Source of the DNA: Brevibacillus sp. DP1.3A
Lineage (GTDB): Bacteria; Bacillota; Bacilli; Brevibacillales; Brevibacillaceae
Assembly (NCBI RefSeq): GCF_013284245.2
Contig: NZ_CP085876.1
Span: 2,463,001 to 2,527,000 of the forward strand
Length of the DNA stretch: 64,000 nt
Direction of reading: 5' to 3'
This document shows positions 5,561 to 64,000 of the stretch, piece by piece (position 1 is the first letter of the stretch; each line of letters opens with the position of its first letter). The notes under the pieces were generated by a model, which saw nothing but the letters and a program-made list of their open reading frames with translations, did no database searches and was not told where the DNA came from. Both the position numbers and the translations under genes were made by a program.

Positions 5561-6694
5561 ATGACGACTTCCTTGTTTACACAAATTCGCCGAGACCTGC
5601 ACCAAATACCGGAGCCAGGCTTCGCTGAAGTGAAGACGCAACAATACTTGCTCGATTATTTGAAAAAGCTTCCACAAGAGCGAATCGAGATCAAAACGTG
5701 GCGGACAGGCATTTTGGTCAAGCTGGCAGGAACAAAGCCTAAACGATTAATTGCCTGGCGGACGGATATGGATGGCCTGCCGATCGTAGAGGAAACGTCC
5801 TATCCGTTTCGCTCGATTCATGAAGGATACATGCATGCATGCGGGCATGACATGCATATGGCGATCGCTCTTGGCCTCCTGACGCATTTTACCGAGCATC
5901 CGATAGCAGATGATTTGCTGTTCCTCTTTCAGCCGGCAGAAGAAGGTCCTGGCGGTGCTGAGCCGATGATGGAAAGTGAAGAGTTTGCAGGGTGGCGACC
6001 AGACTACATTTTTGCCTTGCATATCGCGCCAGAATATCCAGTTGGCCATATTGCGACGAAGCCAGGAATTTTGTTTGCCAACACTTCTGAGTTGTACATT
6101 GATTTGGTTGGCAAAGGGGGGCATGCAGCCTTCCCGCACCAGGCGAATGACATGGTGGTTGCAGGAAGCCATCTTGTGACACAGCTTCAATCGATTATTT
6201 CGCGCAATATGGATCCATTGGATTCAGCTGTCGTAACGATTGGCAAGCTGGAGAGCGGGACGAAGCAGAACATCATCGCAGAGAAGTCCAGGCTAGAAGG
6301 GACCATCCGAACCTTTTCAATGGAATCGATGGCACTCGTCAAGAGCCGCATTGAATCTCTCGTAAAGGGAGTGGAAATAGGCTTTGATTGCCGGGCAGCG
6401 ATTGACTACGGAGTTGGCTACTGCCAGGTTTACAACGAGGAGCAGCTAACGACAGACTTCATGCAATGGGTACAGGAACAATGTGAAGATGTAACTCTCA
6501 TCACCTGCAAGGAAGCCATGACTGGAGAAGACTTCGGTTACTTTTTGAAAGAAATTCCCGGCTTTTTATTCTGGCTTGGGGTGCAAACGCCGTACGGCTT
6601 GCACCATTCCAAAATTGAGCCGAACGATGACGCGATCGAGGTGGCCATTCGACTGGTCTCCCGGTATTTTACATGGCTTTCGCAACAGGAGTAG
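5561..6694 (+). CDS. dapL: N-acetyldiaminopimelate deacetylase
   Basis: A 377-residue M20-family metallo-amidohydrolase that removes acetate from N-acetyl-LL-diaminopimelate, the last specific step of the acetylase branch. Visible metal and catalytic features: RTDMDGLP (residues 67-74), ACGHDMHMA (93-101), the catalytic glutamates in QPAEEGPGG (E127/E128) and a later TGEDFGYF segment holding a C-terminal ligand region. GGAGG lies 8 bases upstream of ATG 5561. It follows the aminotransferase by 3 bases and is closed by a strong terminator, so the riboswitch controls all three genes. Confidence 0.92.
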
Positions 6695-54333: not shown

Positions 54334-55386
54334 ATGCAGATTACATTACAACAAATCGGGAAAAAAGCCACTCTACTAGTTGTAAGCTTGTCGGTTTTAT
54401 TGACGGGCATCGCAACCGCAGGATTGAAAAAGGCCGACGCACGGGAAGCATACGTGGCCAATTCCCCTGCATTTATCGACACAAATGGACATTGGGCAGC
54501 AAAAGAAATAGGGATTGCTACCAAAAAAGGATTGATTAAAGGCTTTCCCGACGGAACCTTTAAGCCAGAGCAAACAGTGACGCAAGAACAGTTTTTATCC
54601 CTGATTGAACGCGTCATTCCTTCCTTTACAGGTCATGAGCCGGAGAGCTTTATCAAAGAGACCTACTTGCAAGCTGCTGTGGGACGTTGGTCGGAAAAAA
54701 CCTATCACCATTTGGCTTCAGCGGGTATCATGCCATCGGGGAAACCGACGGATAGCATGACGCGGTTAGAAGCAGCAAGAACCTTGCTTGCAGCCATCGG
54801 GCATCAATCAGAAGGAGAAAAATATCGGGGAACGACAGCGAAATTTTTCACGGATCTTTCGGTCGAAAATGAAACACAGGTGATGACGGTCTACCCTGCC
54901 TACAAAATGGGGATTTTGGCTGGCTTTCCAGATGGAAGCTTTCGTCCTGATGACAAAATCAACAGAGCACAGGCAGTCGTTCTGTTAAATCGTTTGGAAA
55001 CAAAAATCGACGAGCTGTACCCTGGCAATGTAACAGAGAGCGAGAAAAAGGCAATGACACAAGCTGTCTCGTCATTTGTAGGTGACGTGATGGATAAGCA
55101 AAAGATTCGTCGCTTTGATGACTTGGTCGCGTATGTAAAGAAAAACAATCTGCCTGTGAGCGAATCGTTTTTACGCGAGCATTTTTCGTTTATGCAGTAT
55201 GAAGTGTATGATTATGTCCGGTTTCCGCAGTTTAATGAGCTGATGTACTTTGCAAAAATCGGAATGAATAAATATAGAATGACGGTTCAATATTACGCAG
55301 GAGATTTGGGTGGAAGCGTCGATCGCACGTTTTACCTTTACTCAAGCGATGGCAAAACGTTTCGACTGATTGGAAAAGATGAATAA
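54334..55386 (+). CDS. S-layer homology (SLH) domain protein
   Basis: 350 residues from ATG 54334 (AAAGGTGG upstream). Signal peptide TLLVVSLSVLLTGIATAG, then SLH modules: FIDTNGHWAAKEIGIATKKG with IKGFPDGTFKPEQTVTQEQF; a diverged second copy with LASAGIMPSGKPTDSMTRLEA; and FFTDLSV ... YPAYKMGILAGFPDGSFRPDDKINRAQ. SLH domains bind pyruvylated wall polymer. The C-terminal 130 residues (YPGNVTESEKK ... ) form a small domain of unknown type. A surface-anchored protein; its specific role is unknown. Confidence 0.88.
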   Translation: MQITLQQIGKKATLLVVSLSVLLTGIATAGLKKADAREAYVANSPAFIDTNGHWAAKEIGIATKKGLIKGFPDGTFKPEQTVTQEQFLSLIERVIPSFTGHEPESFIKETYLQAAVGRWSEKTYHHLASAGIMPSGKPTDSMTRLEAARTLLAAIGHQSEGEKYRGTTAKFFTDLSVENETQVMTVYPAYKMGILAGFPDGSFRPDDKINRAQAVVLLNRLETKIDELYPGNVTESEKKAMTQAVSSFVGDVMDKQKIRRFDDLVAYVKKNNLPVSESFLREHFSFMQYEVYDYVRFPQFNELMYFAKIGMNKYRMTVQYYAGDLGGSVDRTFYLYSSDGKTFRLIGKDE

Positions 55387-55392
55387 GAAAAG

Positions 55393-55422
55393 AAGGCTGG
55401 GACATGATCCCAGCCTTTTTTC
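55393..55422. terminator. Bidirectional terminator between SLH and APC genes
   Basis: AAGGCTGGGA and TCCCAGCCTT pair perfectly around CATGA, T run after. Confidence 0.88.
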
Positions 55423-55425
55423 GTG

Positions 55426-56688
55426 TCAGGCATGACGTTTTTGCCAGATAAAAAGGACGAGTGCAATCACGAGTGGATAGAGAGCGGACCACCCCAAAAA
55501 AGGATAGAGTCCTACTGTACAGATGAGAGAAGTCCAGGAAGCGATTCGGCCTACGCGACTATTGCGCAAGAGTCGGACCCCAGCAAGACATCCACCGATG
55601 TAAGTCGCAAAAAAGGTTGCATTGGGTAGCTCGATGAGTCTGGACAAGTCGATTACGTCGAAATAGAGTACGCCGAGAACGAGGACAAAACAAAGAGAGA
55701 GAAACAGAAGCCCGCCGGTTGGAGTCCGGTACTTGGCGTGGAGGGTGCCAAACCAGCGAGGAGCGATCTTTTCTTGCGCCAACGAATAGGCGATGCGTGA
55801 CGCAGCTCCAATGTAAGCGTTGGCTGTTGCGATACAAATGAACAAGGCGGTTACGGCTACAATCCATCCGCCGATCGGACCCAGGGAGAGTTGAACCATG
55901 ACACTGAGCGAGGCAGCAGAGATGCCGACCCCGTAGCTATGCGTAGCCACAGTCATAAAGGCCACGGCAAAATACAAGAGAGCAACGATTCCCGCACTCC
56001 ACAAAACACCGCGAATCGCGTTTTTCGCAGGATCGACGAATTCCTCTGAGAGATGCGTCACGGCTTCCCACCCAATGAAGCACCAGAACATCAGACCTGC
56101 TGCTTGCACGACACTCAACCAACCGTTTGGCATAAAAGGGGAAAAGTGAGTGACAGATGCATGCGGAATGCTTGCGACAACGGCCAAAATCAAAATCGTG
56201 ATAATCAGCGAAACAACAATCGTTTGGACACGTGCAGCTACATGCAAGCCTACAACATTCATCATAAGGACAGCGAGAAGAAGCAGAGCAGCTGCTGCAT
56301 ATACTTGCGAGTCATTCCAGTTCAGCAGGATCGCAATATAGTTGGCCCCTGTAACACTCAGGATCGGTGCGCCAATCGGGACAGACAAGAGAAAGAACCA
56401 GCCTACCATGTTTCCGAATCGATCTCCATACGCTGTCCGTACAAATGTAGAGACTCCACCTGAGCTTGGATAACGAGCAGATAACAGCCCCATCGTAATG
56501 GCCATAGGTAGGACGAGAATAGACATGACGAGCCAAGCTAAAATGGAAGCAGGGCCAGCCTTTTGCGCGGCGAGTCCGGGGATGAGCAGTACGCCGGAAC
56601 CGATCACCGCCCCGATGTATAAGGCGACGATCTGCGGAAGTCGCAGTGTTTTGGCTAGTCCGGGGGCTTGCGTGGATAAATTCCCCAT
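55426..56688 (-). CDS. APC superfamily amino acid permease
   Basis: 420 residues with about 12 membrane helices. The APC signature near the N-terminus is clear: LPQIVALYIGAVIGSGVLLIPG, then SARYPSSGGVSTFVRTAYGD; later GLMFWCFIGWEAVTHLSEEFVDP and YIGAASRIAYSLAQE. It resembles the YjeH/MtrB-like branch. Import or export and substrate cannot be read. ATG 56688 after GAGGG. Divergent from a LysR regulator that probably controls it. Confidence 0.87.
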   Translation of the reverse strand: MGNLSTQAPGLAKTLRLPQIVALYIGAVIGSGVLLIPGLAAQKAGPASILAWLVMSILVLPMAITMGLLSARYPSSGGVSTFVRTAYGDRFGNMVGWFFLLSVPIGAPILSVTGANYIAILLNWNDSQVYAAAALLLLAVLMMNVVGLHVAARVQTIVVSLIITILILAVVASIPHASVTHFSPFMPNGWLSVVQAAGLMFWCFIGWEAVTHLSEEFVDPAKNAIRGVLWSAGIVALLYFAVAFMTVATHSYGVGISAASLSVMVQLSLGPIGGWIVAVTALFICIATANAYIGAASRIAYSLAQEKIAPRWFGTLHAKYRTPTGGLLFLSLCFVLVLGVLYFDVIDLSRLIELPNATFFATYIGGCLAGVRLLRNSRVGRIASWTSLICTVGLYPFLGWSALYPLVIALVLFIWQKRHA

Positions 56689-56712
56689 AGGTAGATCCCT
56701 CACTTTTTTTAC

Positions 56713-56781
56713 TTACCATCTCGTTGGTAACTGAAGTGTAGCATAGACATAATCATCGGAGTTATCTATAATATTAGATAA
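56713..56781. promoter_or_regulatory. Divergent control region with two palindromes and the LysR-gene promoter
   Basis: TAGACA (56744-56749), 17 bases, TATAAT (56767-56772) form a strong promoter for the LysR gene. The palindrome TTATCTA-6-TAGATAA (56762-56781) overlaps its -10, and a second, TTACCA-6-TGGTAA (56713-56730), lies at the permease side. Both have the dyad form of LysR operators, fitting autorepression and control of the permease. Confidence 0.6.
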
Positions 56782-56799
56782 TTCGAATCGATTTTTCCG

Positions 56800-57729
56800 A
56801 TGAAAAGAGGGGGAAATCTGGATACTCGTTATTTGCAAACATTCCGTGAAGTAGCAAAATGCCAGAGCTTTACACGTGCAGCAGAAATTTTAGGCTACGC
56901 GCAGTCAAGTGTGACGGCCCAAATTCAAAATCTGGAATCGGAGTTCGGTGTCAGCCTATTCGAGCGTTGGGGCAAAAAAATCAGGCTTACCCACGCAGGC
57001 GAAGTGCTTCTCGGCTACAGCGAGCAGCTGCAAGCCGTATTAGAGGAGGCAAAAGCGAATCTGTCGGAGCAGGCACATTTGGCGGGAACGTTGAGTATTG
57101 GAACAGTGGAGTCACTGGCAGCCTTTTATTTACCACCTTTTTTGCAAAAATTTCGCTTGGAGCAACCACGTATGCGGATCATGCTTGCACCGGGCATCTG
57201 CCAAGACTTGAGACAGGGAGTAAAGGAAGGGAAGTTCGATTTCGCCTTTGTGCTCGATTGGCTCCAAGATCAATCTGAGCTGACAAATGTCGTTTTAGGT
57301 GAGGAAAAACTAGTTGTTGTGGCTGCACCTACCCATCCACTTGTAAAAAAAGAAAAGGTAGAAACTCACGATTTTAACGGGGAAACCTGGATTTTTACAG
57401 AAAAGGGATGCAGTTACCGAGGGATGATGGAATCGGTGTTGCGTGAAGAAGGAGCCACCGTGGAATCTTCTTTTGAATTTGGCAGTTTGGAAGCGATAAA
57501 ACAATGTGTTGCCTATGATTTAGGAATTGCGTTACTTCCGAAAATTGTCGTACAAGAAGAAGTGAAAAATGGTACACTAGTGATACTCACGTTTTCCCAT
57601 CCGGATATCCGTGTTTTCCGACAGTTGGTCTACCATAAAAAGAAATGGATGCCTCAGGCTTTGTTACGCTTTTTGGAGCTGCTTACGGTAGAAACCGCAG
57701 AGCGTAAATTGCCGATAATAGGAAAATAA
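56800..57729 (+). CDS. LysR family transcriptional regulator
   Basis: 309 residues. N-terminal winged HTH (LQTFREVAKCQSFTRAAEIL, YAQSSVTAQIQNLESEFGVSLFER) and a LysR substrate domain from about residue 95 (LSIGTVESLAAFYLPPFL, FDFAFVLDWLQDQ, LVVVAAPTHPLV, IALLPKIVVQEE). The start is unusual: ATG 56800 has no ribosome binding site, while AGAGGGGG stands 4-5 bases before CTG 56818, giving a start LDTRYLQTF that matches common LysR N-termini. Divergent from the permease, which it likely regulates. Confidence 0.86.
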   Translation: MKRGGNLDTRYLQTFREVAKCQSFTRAAEILGYAQSSVTAQIQNLESEFGVSLFERWGKKIRLTHAGEVLLGYSEQLQAVLEEAKANLSEQAHLAGTLSIGTVESLAAFYLPPFLQKFRLEQPRMRIMLAPGICQDLRQGVKEGKFDFAFVLDWLQDQSELTNVVLGEEKLVVVAAPTHPLVKKEKVETHDFNGETWIFTEKGCSYRGMMESVLREEGATVESSFEFGSLEAIKQCVAYDLGIALLPKIVVQEEVKNGTLVILTFSHPDIRVFRQLVYHKKKWMPQALLRFLELLTVETAERKLPIIGK

Positions 57730-57761
57730 TTGGAAAAACTGATGATGGTTGAACTTGCGTA

Positions 57762-57770
57762 TGATATGAT
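57762..57770 (+). promoter_or_regulatory. Extended -10 promoter of ahcY
   Basis: TGATATGAT (57762-57770) is an extended -10 element, 43 bases before the ahcY start; no good -35. Confidence 0.4.
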
Positions 57771-57812
57771 AGACAAGGTTGCTTTATGAGATAAAAGGAG
57801 GTCCATCCGTAC

Positions 57813-59072
57813 ATGAACACAGTATCTGAAAGCATCGTAAAAGATATGGCGTTGGCGCACAACGGCCATCTGAAAATTGATTGGGTAAAAGAACATATGC
57901 CTGTTCTTAACCGCATTCGTGAGCGCTTTGAAAAAGAGCAGCCGTTTGCAGGCCTGAAAGTTGCGATCTCCTTGCACTTGGAAGCAAAAACGGCTTATCT
58001 GGCAAAAGTAGTTCAAGCTGGTGGCGCTGAAGTAACCATTACTGGTTCCAACCCGCTGTCCACGCAAGATGATATTTGCGCAGCTTTGGTGGAAGACGGT
58101 ATTCGCGTATTTGCGAAATACAACCCAGATCCTGCGGAATACAAAGATCATCTGATCAAAACACTGGAAACTCGTCCTGACCTGATCATTGACGACGGTG
58201 GCGACCTGATCACTATTTTGCACAGCGAGCGCCGTGATCTGTTGTCTCAAGTACGTGGTGGTGCAGAAGAAACGACAACAGGTATTCTGCGTCTGAAAGC
58301 GTTGGAGAAAGAAGGCAAGCTGGAGTTCCCGATGGTTGCCGTAAACGATGCATTCTGCAAATACTTGTTCGATAACCGCTATGGTACGGGTCAATCCGTA
58401 TGGGATGGTATCAACCGTACAACGAACCTCGTAGTAGCTGGTAAAACTGTTGTGGTAGCTGGCTATGGCTGGTGCGGTAAAGGTGTAGCGATGCGTGCAA
58501 AAGGTTTGGGCGCAAAAGTAATCGTAACCGAAATCGACCCAATCAAAGCGGTAGAAGCTTACATGGATGGATTTGAAGTAATGCCAATGCTCGAAGCTGC
58601 GAAGCATGGTGACTACTTCGTAACAGTGACAGGTAACCGCGATATCATCAGCAAAGAGCATTTTGCAGTGATGAAAGATGGCGCAATCTTGTCCAACGCG
58701 GGTCACTTCGATGTCGAAGTAAACAAGGTCGATCTGAATGCAATGTCGACATCTTCCCGTATTGTGCGTAAAGATATTGAAGAATTTGTCTTGACTGATG
58801 GTCGAAAAGTGTACCTGCTCGCAGAAGGCCGCCTCGTGAACTTGGCTGCTGGCGACGGACATCCGGCTGAAATCATGGATATGACCTTTGCTCTGCAAGC
58901 GGTATCCTTGGCTTATGTCAATGAACAGTACAAAAACATTGGCAAAAAAGTGCTGAACGTACCATTCGAGTTGGATCAAATGGTTGCTCAGTACAAGCTG
59001 GAAGCTCTGAACATCGGAATCGACAAATTGACAGATGAGCAAAAATCCTACCTGGAAAGCTGGGTCGAATAG
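57813..59072 (+). CDS. ahcY: S-adenosylhomocysteinase
   Basis: 419 residues. Short bacterial/archaeal type: ISLHLEAKTAYLAKVVQAGGAEV, STQDDICAAL, DDGGDLI, EETTTGILRLKALE, the NAD-binding VVVAGYGWCGKGVAMRAKGLG and SNAGHFDVEV. Hydrolyses S-adenosylhomocysteine to adenosine and homocysteine, whereas B. subtilis uses the Pfs/LuxS-type route. AAAGGAGG precedes ATG 57813. Sits with, but is separately transcribed from, the LysR/permease pair; codon use suggests strong expression. Confidence 0.94.
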   Translation: MNTVSESIVKDMALAHNGHLKIDWVKEHMPVLNRIRERFEKEQPFAGLKVAISLHLEAKTAYLAKVVQAGGAEVTITGSNPLSTQDDICAALVEDGIRVFAKYNPDPAEYKDHLIKTLETRPDLIIDDGGDLITILHSERRDLLSQVRGGAEETTTGILRLKALEKEGKLEFPMVAVNDAFCKYLFDNRYGTGQSVWDGINRTTNLVVAGKTVVVAGYGWCGKGVAMRAKGLGAKVIVTEIDPIKAVEAYMDGFEVMPMLEAAKHGDYFVTVTGNRDIISKEHFAVMKDGAILSNAGHFDVEVNKVDLNAMSTSSRIVRKDIEEFVLTDGRKVYLLAEGRLVNLAAGDGHPAEIMDMTFALQAVSLAYVNEQYKNIGKKVLNVPFELDQMVAQYKLEALNIGIDKLTDEQKSYLESWVE

Positions 59073-59111
59073 TCCCTCGAATCCCGTCTTTTCCCGGCAA
59101 AAAAATATGCG

Positions 59112-59147
59112 AAAAAATCCTGCATACAAACGCAGGATTTTTTTTTA
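59112..59147 (+). terminator. Terminator after ahcY
   Basis: AAAAAATCCTGC and GCAGGATTTTTTTT pair around ATACAAAC. Confidence 0.88.
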
Positions 59148-59167
59148 TAATAACAAATAGGTACTAG

Positions 59168-59214
59168 GTGGGGAAAAGTGGGGGAAAGTGGAGCCAACCG
59201 ACAGGAAAGTGGGG
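59168..59214 (+). promoter_or_regulatory. MraZ-box-like direct repeats before mraZ
   Basis: GTGGGG, GTGGGGG and GTGGAG begin at 59168, 59178 and 59188, exactly 10 bases apart, with another GTGGGGG at 59209. MraZ binds TGGG-type direct repeats with 10-base spacing in front of its own operon in E. coli and Mycoplasma, so this is the expected autorepression site. Confidence 0.65.
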
Positions 59215-59223
59215 GACTAGGGC

Positions 59224-59655
59224 GTGTTCATGGGGGAATATCAACACAGCATCGACGAAAAAGGCCGCCTGACGATCCCAGCCAAATTCCGTGAAGGGCT
59301 AGGCACTTCCTTTGTTATTACCCGCGGTCTGGACCAATGTTTGTTTGCTTATCCGCAAGATGAGTGGAAACAACTAGAGGAAAGACTCAAGTCTCTCCCA
59401 TTTACAAAAGCAGATGCTCGCGCATTTACACGATTTTTCTTTTCAGGTGCCACCGAATGCGAGTGGGACAAGCAGGGAAGGGTAAACATACCACCCAATT
59501 TACGTGAGCATGCAGGCATGCAAAAAGAATGTGTGATCATCGGGGTGTCAAACCGTGTAGAGGTATGGAGCAAGGAACGCTGGGAAGATTACTTTGCCCA
59601 GTCAGAAGGCTCTTTTGGAGAAATTGCCGAAAAACTGGTTGATTTTAATTTGTAG
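59224..59655 (+). CDS. mraZ: Transcriptional regulator MraZ
   Basis: 143 residues, normal length, two SpoVT-AbrB-like repeats each with the DxxGR pattern: [22 protein letters not shown] and [20 protein letters not shown]. Start GTG 59224 gives MFMGEYQ as in B. subtilis; GGGGGAC lies 9 bases upstream. First gene of the division and cell wall (dcw) cluster and probable repressor of it. Confidence 0.95.
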
Positions 59656-59681
59656 CAGCGAGAAGAACAGGAGTGACGACA

Positions 59682-60617
59682 TTGTCGTTTCATCACGTAA
59701 CCGTTTTAATGGATGAGGCTGTCCAAGGGCTGAATATTCGTCCTGGAGGCATTTATGTAGACTGTACGCTCGGTGGAGCAGGGCATAGCAGTTTGATTGC
59801 TTCCAAGCTGACGGAGGGCGGTCGACTTATCGCCATCGATCAGGATGACTGGGCGCTGGATAATGCCCGCGAAAGACTCTCTTCCTATATGGACAGAGTC
59901 ACGCTGGTAAAGAGCAACTTCCGCCATATCAAAGACATTGTAAGCGATTTAGGTTTGACTGGCGTAGACGGAATTTTGTTTGACCTTGGGGTATCCTCTC
60001 CACAGTTGGATGAGGGAGAGCGTGGCTTCAGCTACAATGCTGATGCGCCTCTGGATATGAGAATGGACCAACAAGCGCCATTGTCAGCCTATGACATTAT
60101 CAATGAGTGGGAAGAAGAAGAGATTGCCAAGATCATTTGGCTGTACGGAGAAGAGAAATTTTCCCGCCGAATTGCCCGGCAAATCGTTCAACAACGAAAG
60201 AAGCAGCCGATCCAAACAACAGGCGAGCTGGTTGAATTGATTAAGGAAGGAATTCCTGCCGCTGCGCGCCGTACCGGACCCCATCCGGCGAAGCGCACAT
60301 TTCAGGCGATTCGGATCGCAGTCAATGATGAGCTGGATGCATTCAAAGAGGCCGTCGTCGATGCTATTACTGTCTTGAATCCAGAAGGTCGGGTAAGCGT
60401 CATCACGTTTCATTCCTTAGAGGACAGAATCTGCAAGCAAATTTATCAAGACTTTGCAAAAGGGTGCACGTGCCCGCCAGCCTTTCCGATTTGCACATGT
60501 GGGAATAAAGCAGTCGTAAAAGTCATTACAAAGAAGCCGATTTTGCCATCTGAAGAAGAATTGGAAGCGAATAAGCGTGCACGATCAGCTAAGCTACGGG
60601 TAGCGGAGAAGCTGTAG
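59682..60617 (+). CDS. rsmH: 16S rRNA (cytosine(1402)-N(4))-methyltransferase
   Basis: 311 residues. RsmH/MraW motifs: [16 protein letters not shown], the SAM loop [47 protein letters not shown], and [25 protein letters not shown]. Methylates C1402 of 16S rRNA in the P site. TTG 59682 lies 9 bases after GGAG (59669-59672) and is the likely start; GTG 59673 overlaps that site. Confidence 0.95.
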
Positions 60618-60650
60618 AACGGAAACAACGAGAAAGGAGAGGGAGAAGCG

Positions 60651-61064
60651 ATGAGTTATTACTACCGAGGAAATTTAGCTATGGAGTTGGAACAACAATC
60701 CAAATCTGTAACGAAGACAACAAAGCGAACGGTTCGGATCAAGCCAACGATTCCGACCGGAGAAAAATTGCTGTATCTCTTATTTATCTCGTTAACCGTC
60801 GTCGGCTTGGGTCTAGTGGGTGTCCGCTACTCGCAAATTTCCCAGTTGAATTACGAAATCCAAAGCACTAAACATGAAAATCGTGTGATGACAGAAAAAA
60901 ATGCAACGATGAAATTGCAAATTGAGCAAATGACTAACCGGGATCGCCTGCAAAAAGAAGCAGAGAAGCAGGGGATGGTATACAATCCAGGAGCTGTACA
61001 TACGATTGGGAAATCAGAAGTACGGGCAAGTTCTCTGCCACAAACACAACCCAAAAAACCTTAA
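60651..61064 (+). CDS. ftsL: Cell division protein FtsL
   Basis: 137 residues: basic cytoplasmic N-terminus, one membrane helix (KLLYLLFISLTVVGLGLVGV, about residues 43-62) and an extracytoplasmic coiled coil (ISQLNYEIQSTKHENRVMTE). The bitopic layout, length and place between rsmH and pbpB identify FtsL, which recruits the septal synthase with DivIC. Start ATG 60651 after AAAGGAGAGGGAG. A terminator-like hairpin begins at its stop. Confidence 0.9.
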   Translation: MSYYYRGNLAMELEQQSKSVTKTTKRTVRIKPTIPTGEKLLYLLFISLTVVGLGLVGVRYSQISQLNYEIQSTKHENRVMTEKNATMKLQIEQMTNRDRLQKEAEKQGMVYNPGAVHTIGKSEVRASSLPQTQPKKP

Positions 61065-61129
61065 ATGTTACTGCTCCTTATGTGCGGTAACATTTTTTCT
61101 TAGCTGGGCCAGAGTTTCTGACTCGGCTA
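61063..61129 (+). promoter_or_regulatory. Two hairpins between ftsL and pbpB, the first terminator-like
   Basis: AAATGTTAC (61063-61071) and GTAACATTT (61087-61095) form a perfect 9-bp stem with a 15-base loop followed by TTT; then TAGCTG..CAGA (61101-61113) pairs with TCTG..CGGCTA (61117-61129). The 141-base gap has no open frame. Position inside the dcw operon suggests attenuation or an RNA-processing site. Confidence 0.5.
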
Positions 61130-61205
61130 TTATGTGTTCGTCTCCCAAGAAGGGATACATTCTCGTGGCTTAAGGAGCGGGCGATCTTTGATGCGATGGA
61201 GTTGA

Positions 61206-63683
61206 ATGGAGATGGAATGGAAGCGAAAAGTAAATTGGCGAATTCTCATGGTAGCCTTATGTACGATTTTGATTTTTTCGACGTTGAGCTTTCGAATCTA
61301 CTGGCTTCAGACCGTCAAAGCTACCGATATCATGGGAACGGCTCAAGAACAGTGGGACAGGCAGCAAGTCTTGAAGCCGAAGCGCGGAGCGATCTATGAT
61401 CGAAACGGCGAGATTTTGGCGTATGATGGTAAGGCATACACGGTAAACGCAAAACTGAAGCCGCGCAATGAAAGAGACGAAGATGTGGTGAAAGATCCTT
61501 ACTACACAGCGAATATGCTGGCTCCTATTTTGAATGCGCCTGTTCCAGAATTGGTGAAGAATTTGACCAAGCCGAACAAAGTCGTGGAATTGGGACGCTA
61601 CGGGCAAAAGATCAGTGAAGAGCAAAGGAACCGAATTCTGAATTTGCAATATCCGACCCTGCCAAGTGGTGAGAAGCTCAAAAAGAATCAGCTCCCAGGA
61701 ATCTATTTGACTGAAACGACTCGCCGGGTTTATCCGAATAACGCCTTCGCTTCCCATGTGATTGGTTATCTTGATTTGTATGATGAACCGAAAATGGGGA
61801 TCGAGCTGCAATTGAACGAAGAATTGGCTGGTAAAAAGGGACATATTGCCTACCAAAAGGATCGCGCAGGCTACCAGCTGCCGGACGGAGAAGGGGAGTA
61901 CATTCCGGCAAAGGATGGTTTAGATGTTTACCTGACAATTGACCGGCAAATCCAGAATTATGTAGAGCAAGCGCTTGACAAGGTGGAACAGCAGTACAAG
62001 CCGCAGGGCATGACGGTCATTGTGGCTGACCCGCAAACGGGTGAGGTATTGGCGATGGGCAACCGCTCGCAGTTTAATCCGAATACATACTACAACGGGA
62101 TTGATAATTACAATAACCATGCTGTCACCACAATGTTTGAGCCGGGCTCTACGTTTAAGATTATTACTCTTGCGGCAGCGATTGAAGAAAAAATGTTTAA
62201 TCAGAATGAAACCTATCAATCAGGTGCTTATACCATCAAGGGGCAGATTCCGATCCGTGACCACAACAATGGTGCCGGTTGGGGAACCATCACCTTTTTG
62301 GAAGGGGTTCAGCGATCCAGTAACGTATTGTTCGCGAAGTTGGGGTATGAACGTTTGAAGCTGGAAGGTCTGAAGAAATACTTCAAAAAATTCGGGATGG
62401 GTGAAAAAACCGGAATTGAGCTTCCTTACGAGAAAAAAGGAAGTCTGATCAACCTGGAAAAACCTCGCTCACCACGTGACTGGGCTGCAACAACGTATGG
62501 ACAAGCAGCGACGGTCACGGCGATCCAGCAGATTGCCGCTGTAGGGGCAATCGCGAATGGAGGAGAGCTTCTAAAACCTCATATTGTAAAAGAAAAGCGT
62601 GATCCTCACACTGGAGCAGTCGTCAATCGCACGCAACGTGAGGTTGTGGAGCGGGTTGTAAGTGAAGCGACTGCGCAACAAACACGAGACATTTTGGGTA
62701 AGGTTGTCTCAGAGAAGCCCGGGACTGGTACACTATATCAGATCGAAGGGTACCAAGTAGCAGGAAAGACGGGAACTGCACAAAAATATGATCCCAACAC
62801 AGGGAAAATCATGGATGGCCGTTACGTTGTTTCTTTCATCGGTTTTGCGCCAAAAGACAACCCGAAGCTGTTGGTTTATGTCGTCATTGACGATCCGCAA
62901 ACAGATGCATGGTATGCATTGTGGGGCCAGATGATGCTCGCTCCCATGTTTACAACCATCATGGAACGCAGCCTGCAATATTTGCAGCAGCAGCCTGATT
63001 TGTCGGTAGGCAAGAATAAACAGAATGAAAAGCCGACGTCGAAAAAAGAAGCCCAGGCAGCACTGGCATCCTCACCTGCTACACCGAAGACATTGCCTAA
63101 GTTTGAAGGGATGTCCACGACAGCCGCGCAATTGCGAGCGAAGCAGGACAATTTGACGGTCACAGTAGCCGGGACAGGTACGAAAATCGTTAAACAGTAC
63201 CCGGAAGCGTATGATCAGGTCGTTCCAGGTGAACAGATCATCCTTGTAACAGACAGGGTCAAAGGAACAAAGATGCCTGACTTCAAAGGAAAATCATTGC
63301 GGGACGTCATGGAGTTCAGCTCTTTGATCAATCTCGCAATGAAATCGACTGGAACTGGCTTCGTCACCCAACAAAGCATTCCTCCGGGAACGGTGCTCCA
63401 GGGTACAGAGTTGCTTCAGGTGACGCTGCAATCCGTGTCGGAACCATCTGTACCGACAACACCTCCTCCAGGTCAGGAGGGCAGCACAGTGCCTGCTACA
63501 ACGACGCCAAGCAATACGGCGCCGGATGCTACTACAAATCCAACAGGTGGAAATAATCCGGCTCCGCCATCTTCCGGTCAGCAAACTGGGCAAGGCGGTG
63601 CAGCACAGCCGCCAGCATCTGGACAGACACCTCCTCCTGACAATCCAGGAGACCAATCAACACAAACACCGACAACTCCATAG
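61206..63683 (+). CDS. pbpB: Penicillin-binding protein 2B (septal transpeptidase, class B) with PASTA domains
   Basis: 825 residues, about 110 more than B. subtilis PBP2B. Short cytoplasmic start, membrane anchor (ILMVALCTILIFSTLSFRIYW), pedestal domain, and transpeptidase with SxxK STFK (residues 315-318), SxN SSN (371-373) and KTG (521-523). Two PASTA domains follow (about 625-690 and 690-745). The last 80 residues are a Pro/Thr/Gly/Gln-rich tail (TPPPGQEGST, NPTGGNNPAPPSSG), absent from the B. subtilis protein. Cross-links septal peptidoglycan. ATG 61206 after GGAG at 61197-61200. Confidence 0.94.
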   Translation: MEMEWKRKVNWRILMVALCTILIFSTLSFRIYWLQTVKATDIMGTAQEQWDRQQVLKPKRGAIYDRNGEILAYDGKAYTVNAKLKPRNERDEDVVKDPYYTANMLAPILNAPVPELVKNLTKPNKVVELGRYGQKISEEQRNRILNLQYPTLPSGEKLKKNQLPGIYLTETTRRVYPNNAFASHVIGYLDLYDEPKMGIELQLNEELAGKKGHIAYQKDRAGYQLPDGEGEYIPAKDGLDVYLTIDRQIQNYVEQALDKVEQQYKPQGMTVIVADPQTGEVLAMGNRSQFNPNTYYNGIDNYNNHAVTTMFEPGSTFKIITLAAAIEEKMFNQNETYQSGAYTIKGQIPIRDHNNGAGWGTITFLEGVQRSSNVLFAKLGYERLKLEGLKKYFKKFGMGEKTGIELPYEKKGSLINLEKPRSPRDWAATTYGQAATVTAIQQIAAVGAIANGGELLKPHIVKEKRDPHTGAVVNRTQREVVERVVSEATAQQTRDILGKVVSEKPGTGTLYQIEGYQVAGKTGTAQKYDPNTGKIMDGRYVVSFIGFAPKDNPKLLVYVVIDDPQTDAWYALWGQMMLAPMFTTIMERSLQYLQQQPDLSVGKNKQNEKPTSKKEAQAALASSPATPKTLPKFEGMSTTAAQLRAKQDNLTVTVAGTGTKIVKQYPEAYDQVVPGEQIILVTDRVKGTKMPDFKGKSLRDVMEFSSLINLAMKSTGTGFVTQQSIPPGTVLQGTELLQVTLQSVSEPSVPTTPPPGQEGSTVPATTTPSNTAPDATTNPTGGNNPAPPSSGQQTGQGGAAQPPASGQTPPPDNPGDQSTQTPTTP

Positions 63684-63691
63684 TTCTAACT

Positions 63692-63743
63692 AGTCCCCCC
63701 TGCGAATAAGGTTAAGAAGAGACAACCTATTTGAGGGGGGACT
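63692..63743 (+). promoter_or_regulatory. Hairpin sequestering the spoVD ribosome binding site
   Basis: AGTCCCCCCT (63692-63701) is the perfect complement of AGGGGGGACT (63734-63743), which contains the spoVD Shine-Dalgarno. Above it AATAAGGTT (63705-63713) pairs with AACCTATT (63724-63731) with one bulge. No T run follows, so it is not an ordinary terminator. On a transcript from pbpB the spoVD start would be occluded. Confidence 0.7.
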
Positions 63744-63747
63744 CGCT

Positions 63748-64000
63748 TTGCGGGTATCCAATGCTACTGTACGCCGTCGCATTTTTATCATCTTGATTGT
63801 AGGAGTTGTTTTGTATTCGGCACTTGTCACCCGTTTGGGTTATGTTCAATTGATAGAAGGACCGAAACTCTCGCAAATGTCTGATGAACTGCTCAAGCGG
63901 GAAATTAAGTTTCAACCCAATCGCGGTCGCATTCTAGACAGAAGCGGCAATGAGCTCGTGACGAATATGACCGTCCCCACACTGGTATCGGTAGGGGCGC
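63748..64000 (+). CDS. spoVD: Sporulation-specific penicillin-binding protein SpoVD (partial, N-terminus)
   Basis: The first 84 codons are present and the gene runs off the right edge. The N-terminus RVSNATVRRRIFIILIVGVV, membrane helix, TRLGYVQLIEG and FQPNRGRILDRSGNEL match SpoVD, the spore-cortex class B PBP that follows pbpB in B. subtilis. TTG 63748 with GAGGGGGG 7 bases upstream; that site lies inside a stable hairpin. Expressed under sigma-E in the mother cell in B. subtilis. Confidence 0.92.
   Translation, partial: MRVSNATVRRRIFIILIVGVVLYSALVTRLGYVQLIEGPKLSQMSDELLKREIKFQPNRGRILDRSGNELVTNMTVPTLVSVGA

Follow-up and report, generated by a model that had tools for sequence, protein, structure and literature searches.

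A conserved hairpin overlapping the predicted spoVD promoter of Brevibacillus probably closes the spoVD ribosome-binding site in RNA reading in from pbpB

In Brevibacillus sp. DP1.3A, the sporulation gene spoVD follows the growth gene pbpB, and the junction between them carries an inverted repeat with compensatory conservation and no detectable terminator. The hairpin formed by this repeat is real, exceptional, and conserved. We consider it probable that the repeat folds in RNA reading in from pbpB, keeping the ribosome-binding site of spoVD closed, and that RNA from the predicted sigma-E promoter of spoVD itself, which would start in the loop and lack the left arm, carries an open Shine-Dalgarno (SD) sequence. 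Because the left arm lies inside this predicted promoter, messages begun there are likely to lack it and to be readable. The likely purpose would be insulation of a gene that stands behind a division gene without a terminator, with its sporulation promoter doubling as the anti-SD arm. Positions at the junction refer to the forward strand of the whole stretch of DNA analyzed (the window), which comprises 64,000 nucleotides of contig NZ_CP085876.1 (positions 2,463,001 to 2,527,000).

Two open reading frames define the junction. pbpB, the gene of a division transpeptidase, occupies positions 61206..63683 (825 aa, stop codon TAG at 63681-63683), and spoVD begins with a TTG start codon at 63748 and runs to 64000, continuing past the window end. 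A TIGR02214 search of the genome (6.66 Mb in total) gave spoVD 767.8 bits, the sole one of 11 matches above the family cut-off; the second-best match, under the cut-off, was pbpB, which lies directly 5′ of spoVD. Relatives of PbpB occur in 11 named Brevibacillus records, the nearest being those of B. formosus, B. fortis, and B. porteri (93%, best segment), and the open reading frames further 5′ of pbpB are ones that we take to resemble mraZ, mraW, and ftsL. A terminator search of the forward strand called no terminator-like site at the pbpB-spoVD junction, and the stem before spoVD is followed by CGCTTTGCGG and not by the T run of an intrinsic terminator. On the reading proposed here, transcripts of pbpB would reach spoVD during growth. 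A covariance search of positions 55000-64000 returned no Rfam family at or above its gathering score; its sole match, away from the junction, was a weak one to Thr_leader at 59088-59146, 5′ of the mraZ-like gene (26.2 bits versus a gathering score of 55). An identity of the spoVD hairpin with a known riboswitch or leader was rejected, as no Rfam match fell at the locus. With regard to start codons, the spoVD genes of 39 Brevibacillaceae use TTG (24), GTG (10), or ATG (5), and the non-ATG majority may represent a further brake on expression in this family.

The entire hairpin spans positions 63692-63743. Its lower stem is a perfect 10-bp inverted repeat, in which the left (anti-SD) arm AGTCCCCCCT at 63692-63701, recognized by sequence, fold, and covariation, faces the right arm AGGGGGGACT at 63734-63743, recognized by sequence and fold. 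The upper stem-loop (63703..63733) pairs 63703-63713 with 63724-63733 in the predicted fold, giving 10 pairs and one bulged A at 63709. The original prediction had described the 10-bp stem exactly as it reads in the sequence, topped by a further stem of 8 bp; this upper stem appears in the predicted fold, and its length is to be corrected to 10 pairs with a bulge. The prediction that the hairpin encloses the SD of spoVD also held, since the SD core GGGGGG (63735-63740), placed as the best six-base match to what we take to be the anti-SD sequence, lies wholly within the right arm. The minimum free energy fold of positions 63684-63790 contains the hairpin (-36.6 kcal/mol, z = -3.41), and none of 200 dinucleotide shuffles equaled it. 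Opening the SD of spoVD in the read-through context is predicted to cost 19.5 kcal/mol, versus a median of 4.3, a 90th percentile of 8.4, and a maximum of 11.6 kcal/mol for 61 other open reading frames of the window, which were chosen mechanically and include some that are not certain genes. Burial of the SD in the long form is thus indicated by the predicted fold, the opening energy, and covariation, and the closed form would probably be poorly translated. The loop contains GAGACAAC (63719..63726), a possible SpoIIID-like site by its likeness to what we take to be the SpoIIID motif, and it includes the GACAA conserved in Brevibacillaceae leaders.

SpoVD was detected in all 39 Brevibacillaceae genomes searched, which belong to seven genera, and an order-level search gave the same 39. 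The hairpin element is present in every one of them (28 distinct leaders once identical ones are merged), and all 39 leaders share one plan, consisting of GTTCTA, a spacer, GAATA with a GT-ending block, a GACAA loop, a partner strand, the SD, and the start codon. The distance between the two blocks is constant in 38 of the 39, that of G003 being one base shorter, and the sequence of the spacer varies. Pairing between spacer and SD is predicted in each of the 28 distinct leaders, with mean pair probabilities of 0.66-1.00. The arms have changed in a compensatory manner, reading GTCCCCCC/GGGGGGAC in most of genus g1, CACTCCTC/GAGGAGTG in genus g2, CCCTTCCC/GGGAGGG in genus g5, and GCCCCTCCC/GGGAGGGG in genome G032. 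In alignment A2, two-sided changes affect seven of the nine lower-stem pairs, and 20 cells are changed on both sides versus 9.8 in shuffles (reached by 0 of 500), counts that lean toward the structure because A2 was fitted to it; sliding by +1 column still leaves 14 two-sided cells versus the 20. In the upper stem, two-sided change was found at none of seven pairs, so that its support as RNA is weak and its conservation may reflect a role as promoter DNA. In the MAFFT alignment A1 the right arm of genus g2 is out of place, and the unguided fold of A1 has only five pairs, two of them two-sided. Because of these limits of A1 and A2, a spacer-anchored table and alignment-free permutation tests were used. 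Among 13 diverse Brevibacillaceae leaders, duplexes between spacer and own leader average -19.6 kcal/mol versus -15.7 kcal/mol for permuted partners (0 of 2000 permutations). In the three g5 leaders (L055, L053, and L054), an insert of about 10-25 bases separates the loop from the SD arm, with block spacing unchanged.

A conserved two-block element with fixed spacing has the left arm in its spacer. The first block, GTTCTA (63683..63688), is the predicted -35 element and occurs in all 39 Brevibacillaceae leaders; at the DP1.3A locus its G doubles as the final base of the pbpB stop codon. It is followed by the 16-nt spacer that holds the left arm (63689..63704), whose sequence varies with complementarity to its own leader kept, and by the second block, AATAAGGT (63705..63712), the predicted -10 element, which was recognized by class-wide comparison of leaders. 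Given this position of the second block, transcription would start at about 63719, the seventh base after it by promoter geometry (plus or minus a few bases), which is in the loop and downstream of the left strands of both the lower and the upper stem.

For the class-wide comparison, another 80 spoVD leaders from a range of families and genera were taken without motif selection (one locus was unusable because of a masked stretch); they were drawn among the matches listed, where families with lower-scoring SpoVD, such as f3, f7, f25, and f48, are absent. With a threshold of at least 8.5 of 10 points for GTTCTA plus the NATANNNT block, 116 of the 132 leaders scored among the matches listed carried the element, versus 6 of 396 shuffled sequences. 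Again among the matches listed, both blocks are present in 63 of 79 unselected spoVD leaders from other families of Bacilli, and sampling of 39 families showed the element in 35. Of the 116 leaders with the element (among the matches listed), 113 have a 16-nt gap and 31 have a second block of the CATA type (17 of them CATATATT or CATATAGT). The CATA-type block is close to what we take to be the sigma-E -10 consensus, and the block spacing presumably fits the sigma-E consensus as well. In Brevibacillaceae the second block is AATARGGT or AATANNGT-like, and we do not take AATARGGT and GTTCTA for textbook sigma-E elements. The CATA-type -10 sequences, together with sigma-E control of spoVD in B. 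subtilis, led us to read the two blocks as the spoVD sigma-E promoter, an assignment of sigma factor made from sequence and to be taken as putative. In the accessible portion of the literature, B. subtilis spoVD is described as controlled by sigma-E and repressed by SpoIIID (PMC517825), its promoter being a sigma-E promoter with two SpoIIID sites (Zhang et al. 1997, cited in PMC517825). Counting against the sigma-E reading, spoVD of C. difficile is listed with sigma-H promoters in the accessible part of another report (PMC7438776). The original prediction had staked its case on a stem kept in relatives and on a sigma-E start not upstream of 63692. The pairing of left arm and SD in 39 of 39 Brevibacillaceae, with two-sided changes at seven of nine lower-stem pairs, agrees with the former, and the only conserved promoter-like element found predicts a start near 63719, past the left arm; its interpretation is thus supported as to anatomy and evolution.

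Complementarity between spacer and leader extends beyond Brevibacillaceae. When one leader was taken from each of 33 families, own spacer-leader pairs averaged -11.4 versus -8.9 kcal/mol for permuted ones (0 of 2000), and the 32 families without Brevibacillaceae averaged -11.1 versus -8.8 kcal/mol (0 of 2000); five redraws of the 33 representatives had the same outcome, and the test scores complementarity to the whole leader and not to the SD alone. With the short form modeled to start at the seventh base after the -10 block, the mean cost of opening the SD in the 28 Brevibacillaceae leaders is predicted to fall from 14.2 kcal/mol in read-through RNA to 5.1 kcal/mol. Corresponding values are 9.7 and 2.4 kcal/mol in f12 (n = 11), 11.9 and 2.9 in f4 (n = 6), 13.5 and 2.4 in f2, and 15.4 and 6.3 in f21 (n = 1 each). 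Counting against an open short form, most g1 leaders still hold approximately 5-6 kcal/mol of SD structure in it. Spacer-SD pairing is near nil in f20, f32, f33, f37, and f41 (mean 0.00-0.10; n = 3, 2, 2, 6, and 4, respectively). When only the spacer was shuffled, the opening cost fell significantly (p <= 0.05) for no more than 20 of the 28 Brevibacillaceae leaders and 2 of the 11 from f12, since the spacers are C- or T-rich. By a strict rule for sequestering, which demands a pair probability of 0.5 or higher and a gain of 3 kcal/mol or more, the SD counts as sequestered in 53 of 102 distinct leaders, including 25 of the 28 from Brevibacillaceae; the other three (G022, G034, and G038) gain less than 3 kcal/mol.

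A terminator search before the promoter detected none in the 28 distinct Brevibacillaceae leaders. Across the class, fewer of the sequestering leaders have a terminator (5 of 53, versus 18 of 49 among the others; Fisher p = 0.0017), in a contrast that omits 19 of 121 distinct leaders for lack of a scored promoter or usable geometry, 11 of these 19 carrying a terminator. With Brevibacillaceae removed, the contrast is 5 of 28 sequestering versus 18 of 46 other leaders (p = 0.07), and by family it is 3 of 12 versus 11 of 21 (p = 0.16, not significant). The notion of either a hairpin or a terminator is therefore a lead or trend and not a result. The f15 leaders, three in number, combine a terminator with a lack of sequestering under the strict rule. 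We offer only as a tentative suggestion, to which we give somewhat less than an even chance, that an old device is shared across the Bacilli, in which the sigma-E promoter of spoVD is shaped so that its spacer supplies the anti-SD arm to whatever RNA traverses it, and in which the junction is insulated by a hairpin or a terminator, one replacing the other.

Copies of the element elsewhere were sought with a model of the spoVD leader (R1) in a class scan of 398 genomes (E <= 0.1). Outside Brevibacillaceae, 20 genomes matched, and of 18 places read, 14 lay directly before spoVD and four did not. The genome of DP1.3A itself has one strong match (E 1e-18) and a second, weak place on both strands (E 0.003 and 0.09; L231, C1 465218-465276), which was rejected as a copy because it reads as the terminator hairpin of an unrelated leader. 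The latter sits before an oxidoreductase-like gene and looks to us like a purine riboswitch. Further weak matches occur in 6 of 36 matching Brevibacillaceae genomes (E 8e-4 to 0.06), and the weak extra places in G010 and G014, when read, showed no spoVD there. A place before an uppP-like gene (L098 in G393, at about 600-680; E 0.034) is similar by eye and was set aside, chance being a likely source of such a match among 398 genomes. A repeat pattern run on the DP1.3A genome gave 19 matches versus 18 for its reversed control and misses the locus itself, the loop of the pattern being one base too short; for these reasons it was not used. The other sporulation gene of the cluster, spoVE, has in its leader (L188, about 6250-6349, in the same genome past the window) a stem CGTCCC/GGGACG that starts in the predicted sigma-E -10 element CATAACGT. 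Of 13 genomes whose spoVE leaders were read, 7 have a similar stem in the promoter region, and by visual inspection both of its sides have changed. spoVE was rejected as a second case, the SD-like AAAGGATG lying 3′ of the stem.

Other readings of the same conservation must be weighed. Strongly conserved blocks and loop, with a covarying lower stem, are what a structured RNA would display, and the blocks might be an RNA motif that a ligand, a protein, or a small RNA recognizes, with transcription starting further upstream and the factor opening the anti-SD stem during sporulation in the manner of a riboswitch. We find this unlikely, because a single block spacing holds in 113 of 116 leaders among the matches listed while the lengths of the loop and right side vary, the CATA-type second block of 31 leaders (among the matches listed) fits a promoter, the upper stem lacks two-sided change, no Rfam family matches, and the blocks are retained in families without spacer-SD pairing.

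It is also conceivable, if quite improbable in our estimation, that the hairpin acts as a constant (or temperature-dependent) damper on spoVD translation, the sporulation transcript included, and that the true start lies 5′ of the left arm. A parallel is B. subtilis sigG, for which the accessible part of one report describes a small local hairpin at the ribosome-binding site that dampens translation 2-4-fold in the gene's own transcript (PMC5942855). However, no other conserved promoter-like element was found upstream of the spoVD left arm, where the tail of pbpB is not conserved, and a penalty above 14 kcal/mol would all but silence a gene that the spore needs. The position of the hairpin directly 3′ of the pbpB stop codon and the putatively SpoIIID-like GACAA in its loop would suit a DNA operator or a processing or 3′-end stability hairpin of the pbpB mRNA, with SD burial incidental. 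Such an origin is very hard to credit: the arms change in sequence with complementarity kept and their distance varies, unlike an operator, and in all 28 distinct Brevibacillaceae leaders the left arm pairs with the SD, a partner for which a stability hairpin has no need.

If the sequestering of the SD in read-through RNA is as proposed, it would explain how the gene of a spore-cortex enzyme can lie among division and cell-wall genes, lacking a terminator on its upstream side, and be silent in growth. One short stretch of DNA would be under two selections, for promoter spacing and for RNA pairing, and this dual selection makes the idea traceable by sequence alone in many species. Since different Bacilli seem to solve the junction differently, they offer a natural setting in which to compare how growth genes are insulated from developmental genes at the transcriptional and at the translational level. 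It would also be a reminder that RNA reads across a bacterial gene need not equal protein.

No description of a hairpin in the spoVD mRNA leader was found in the open-licence literature, judged by titles and the starts of abstracts, and the accessible portion of PMC517825 makes no mention of an RNA hairpin at B. subtilis spoVD, the same gene with, by our reading, the same promoter. The principle itself is already known. According to the accessible part of PMC3014915, the SD of phage T4 gene e is buried in a long early RNA, late promoters lie within the DNA of the 5′ strand of the hairpin, and the late RNA is open, synthesis being repressed approximately 100-fold. The leaders of T4 gene e, soc, 49, and I-TevI resemble that of spoVD in having an SD buried in the long RNA and, as predicted for spoVD, an own promoter in the DNA of the 5′ strand (PMC3014915, same portion); they differ in serving phage timing and not the alternation of growth and sporulation, in having no homology to it, and in that the spoVD case is known from predicted energies. 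Closer to spoVD, the available part of PMC5942855 proposes for B. subtilis sigG (spoIIIG), located behind the spoIIGA-sigE operon, that a hairpin of 20 or more pairs blocks read-through translation and cannot form in RNA from sigG's own promoter. As described there, sigG is like spoVD a sporulation gene behind another operon, with a hairpin excluded from own-promoter RNA (by prediction in the case of spoVD), whereas it depends on sigma-F/G and its upstream operon is itself a sporulation operon, in contrast to the growth gene pbpB. sigG leaders were obtained from 30 of 38 Brevibacillaceae genomes searched, and their SD closure is only moderate (2.8-8.7 kcal/mol). spoVD would thus be a further case of a principle known from T4 gene e and proposed at sigG, possibly an old one within the Bacilli. 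New in it are the junction of a growth gene and a sporulation gene, an anti-SD arm provided by a promoter spacer, and arms that have evolved in a compensatory manner throughout a bacterial class.
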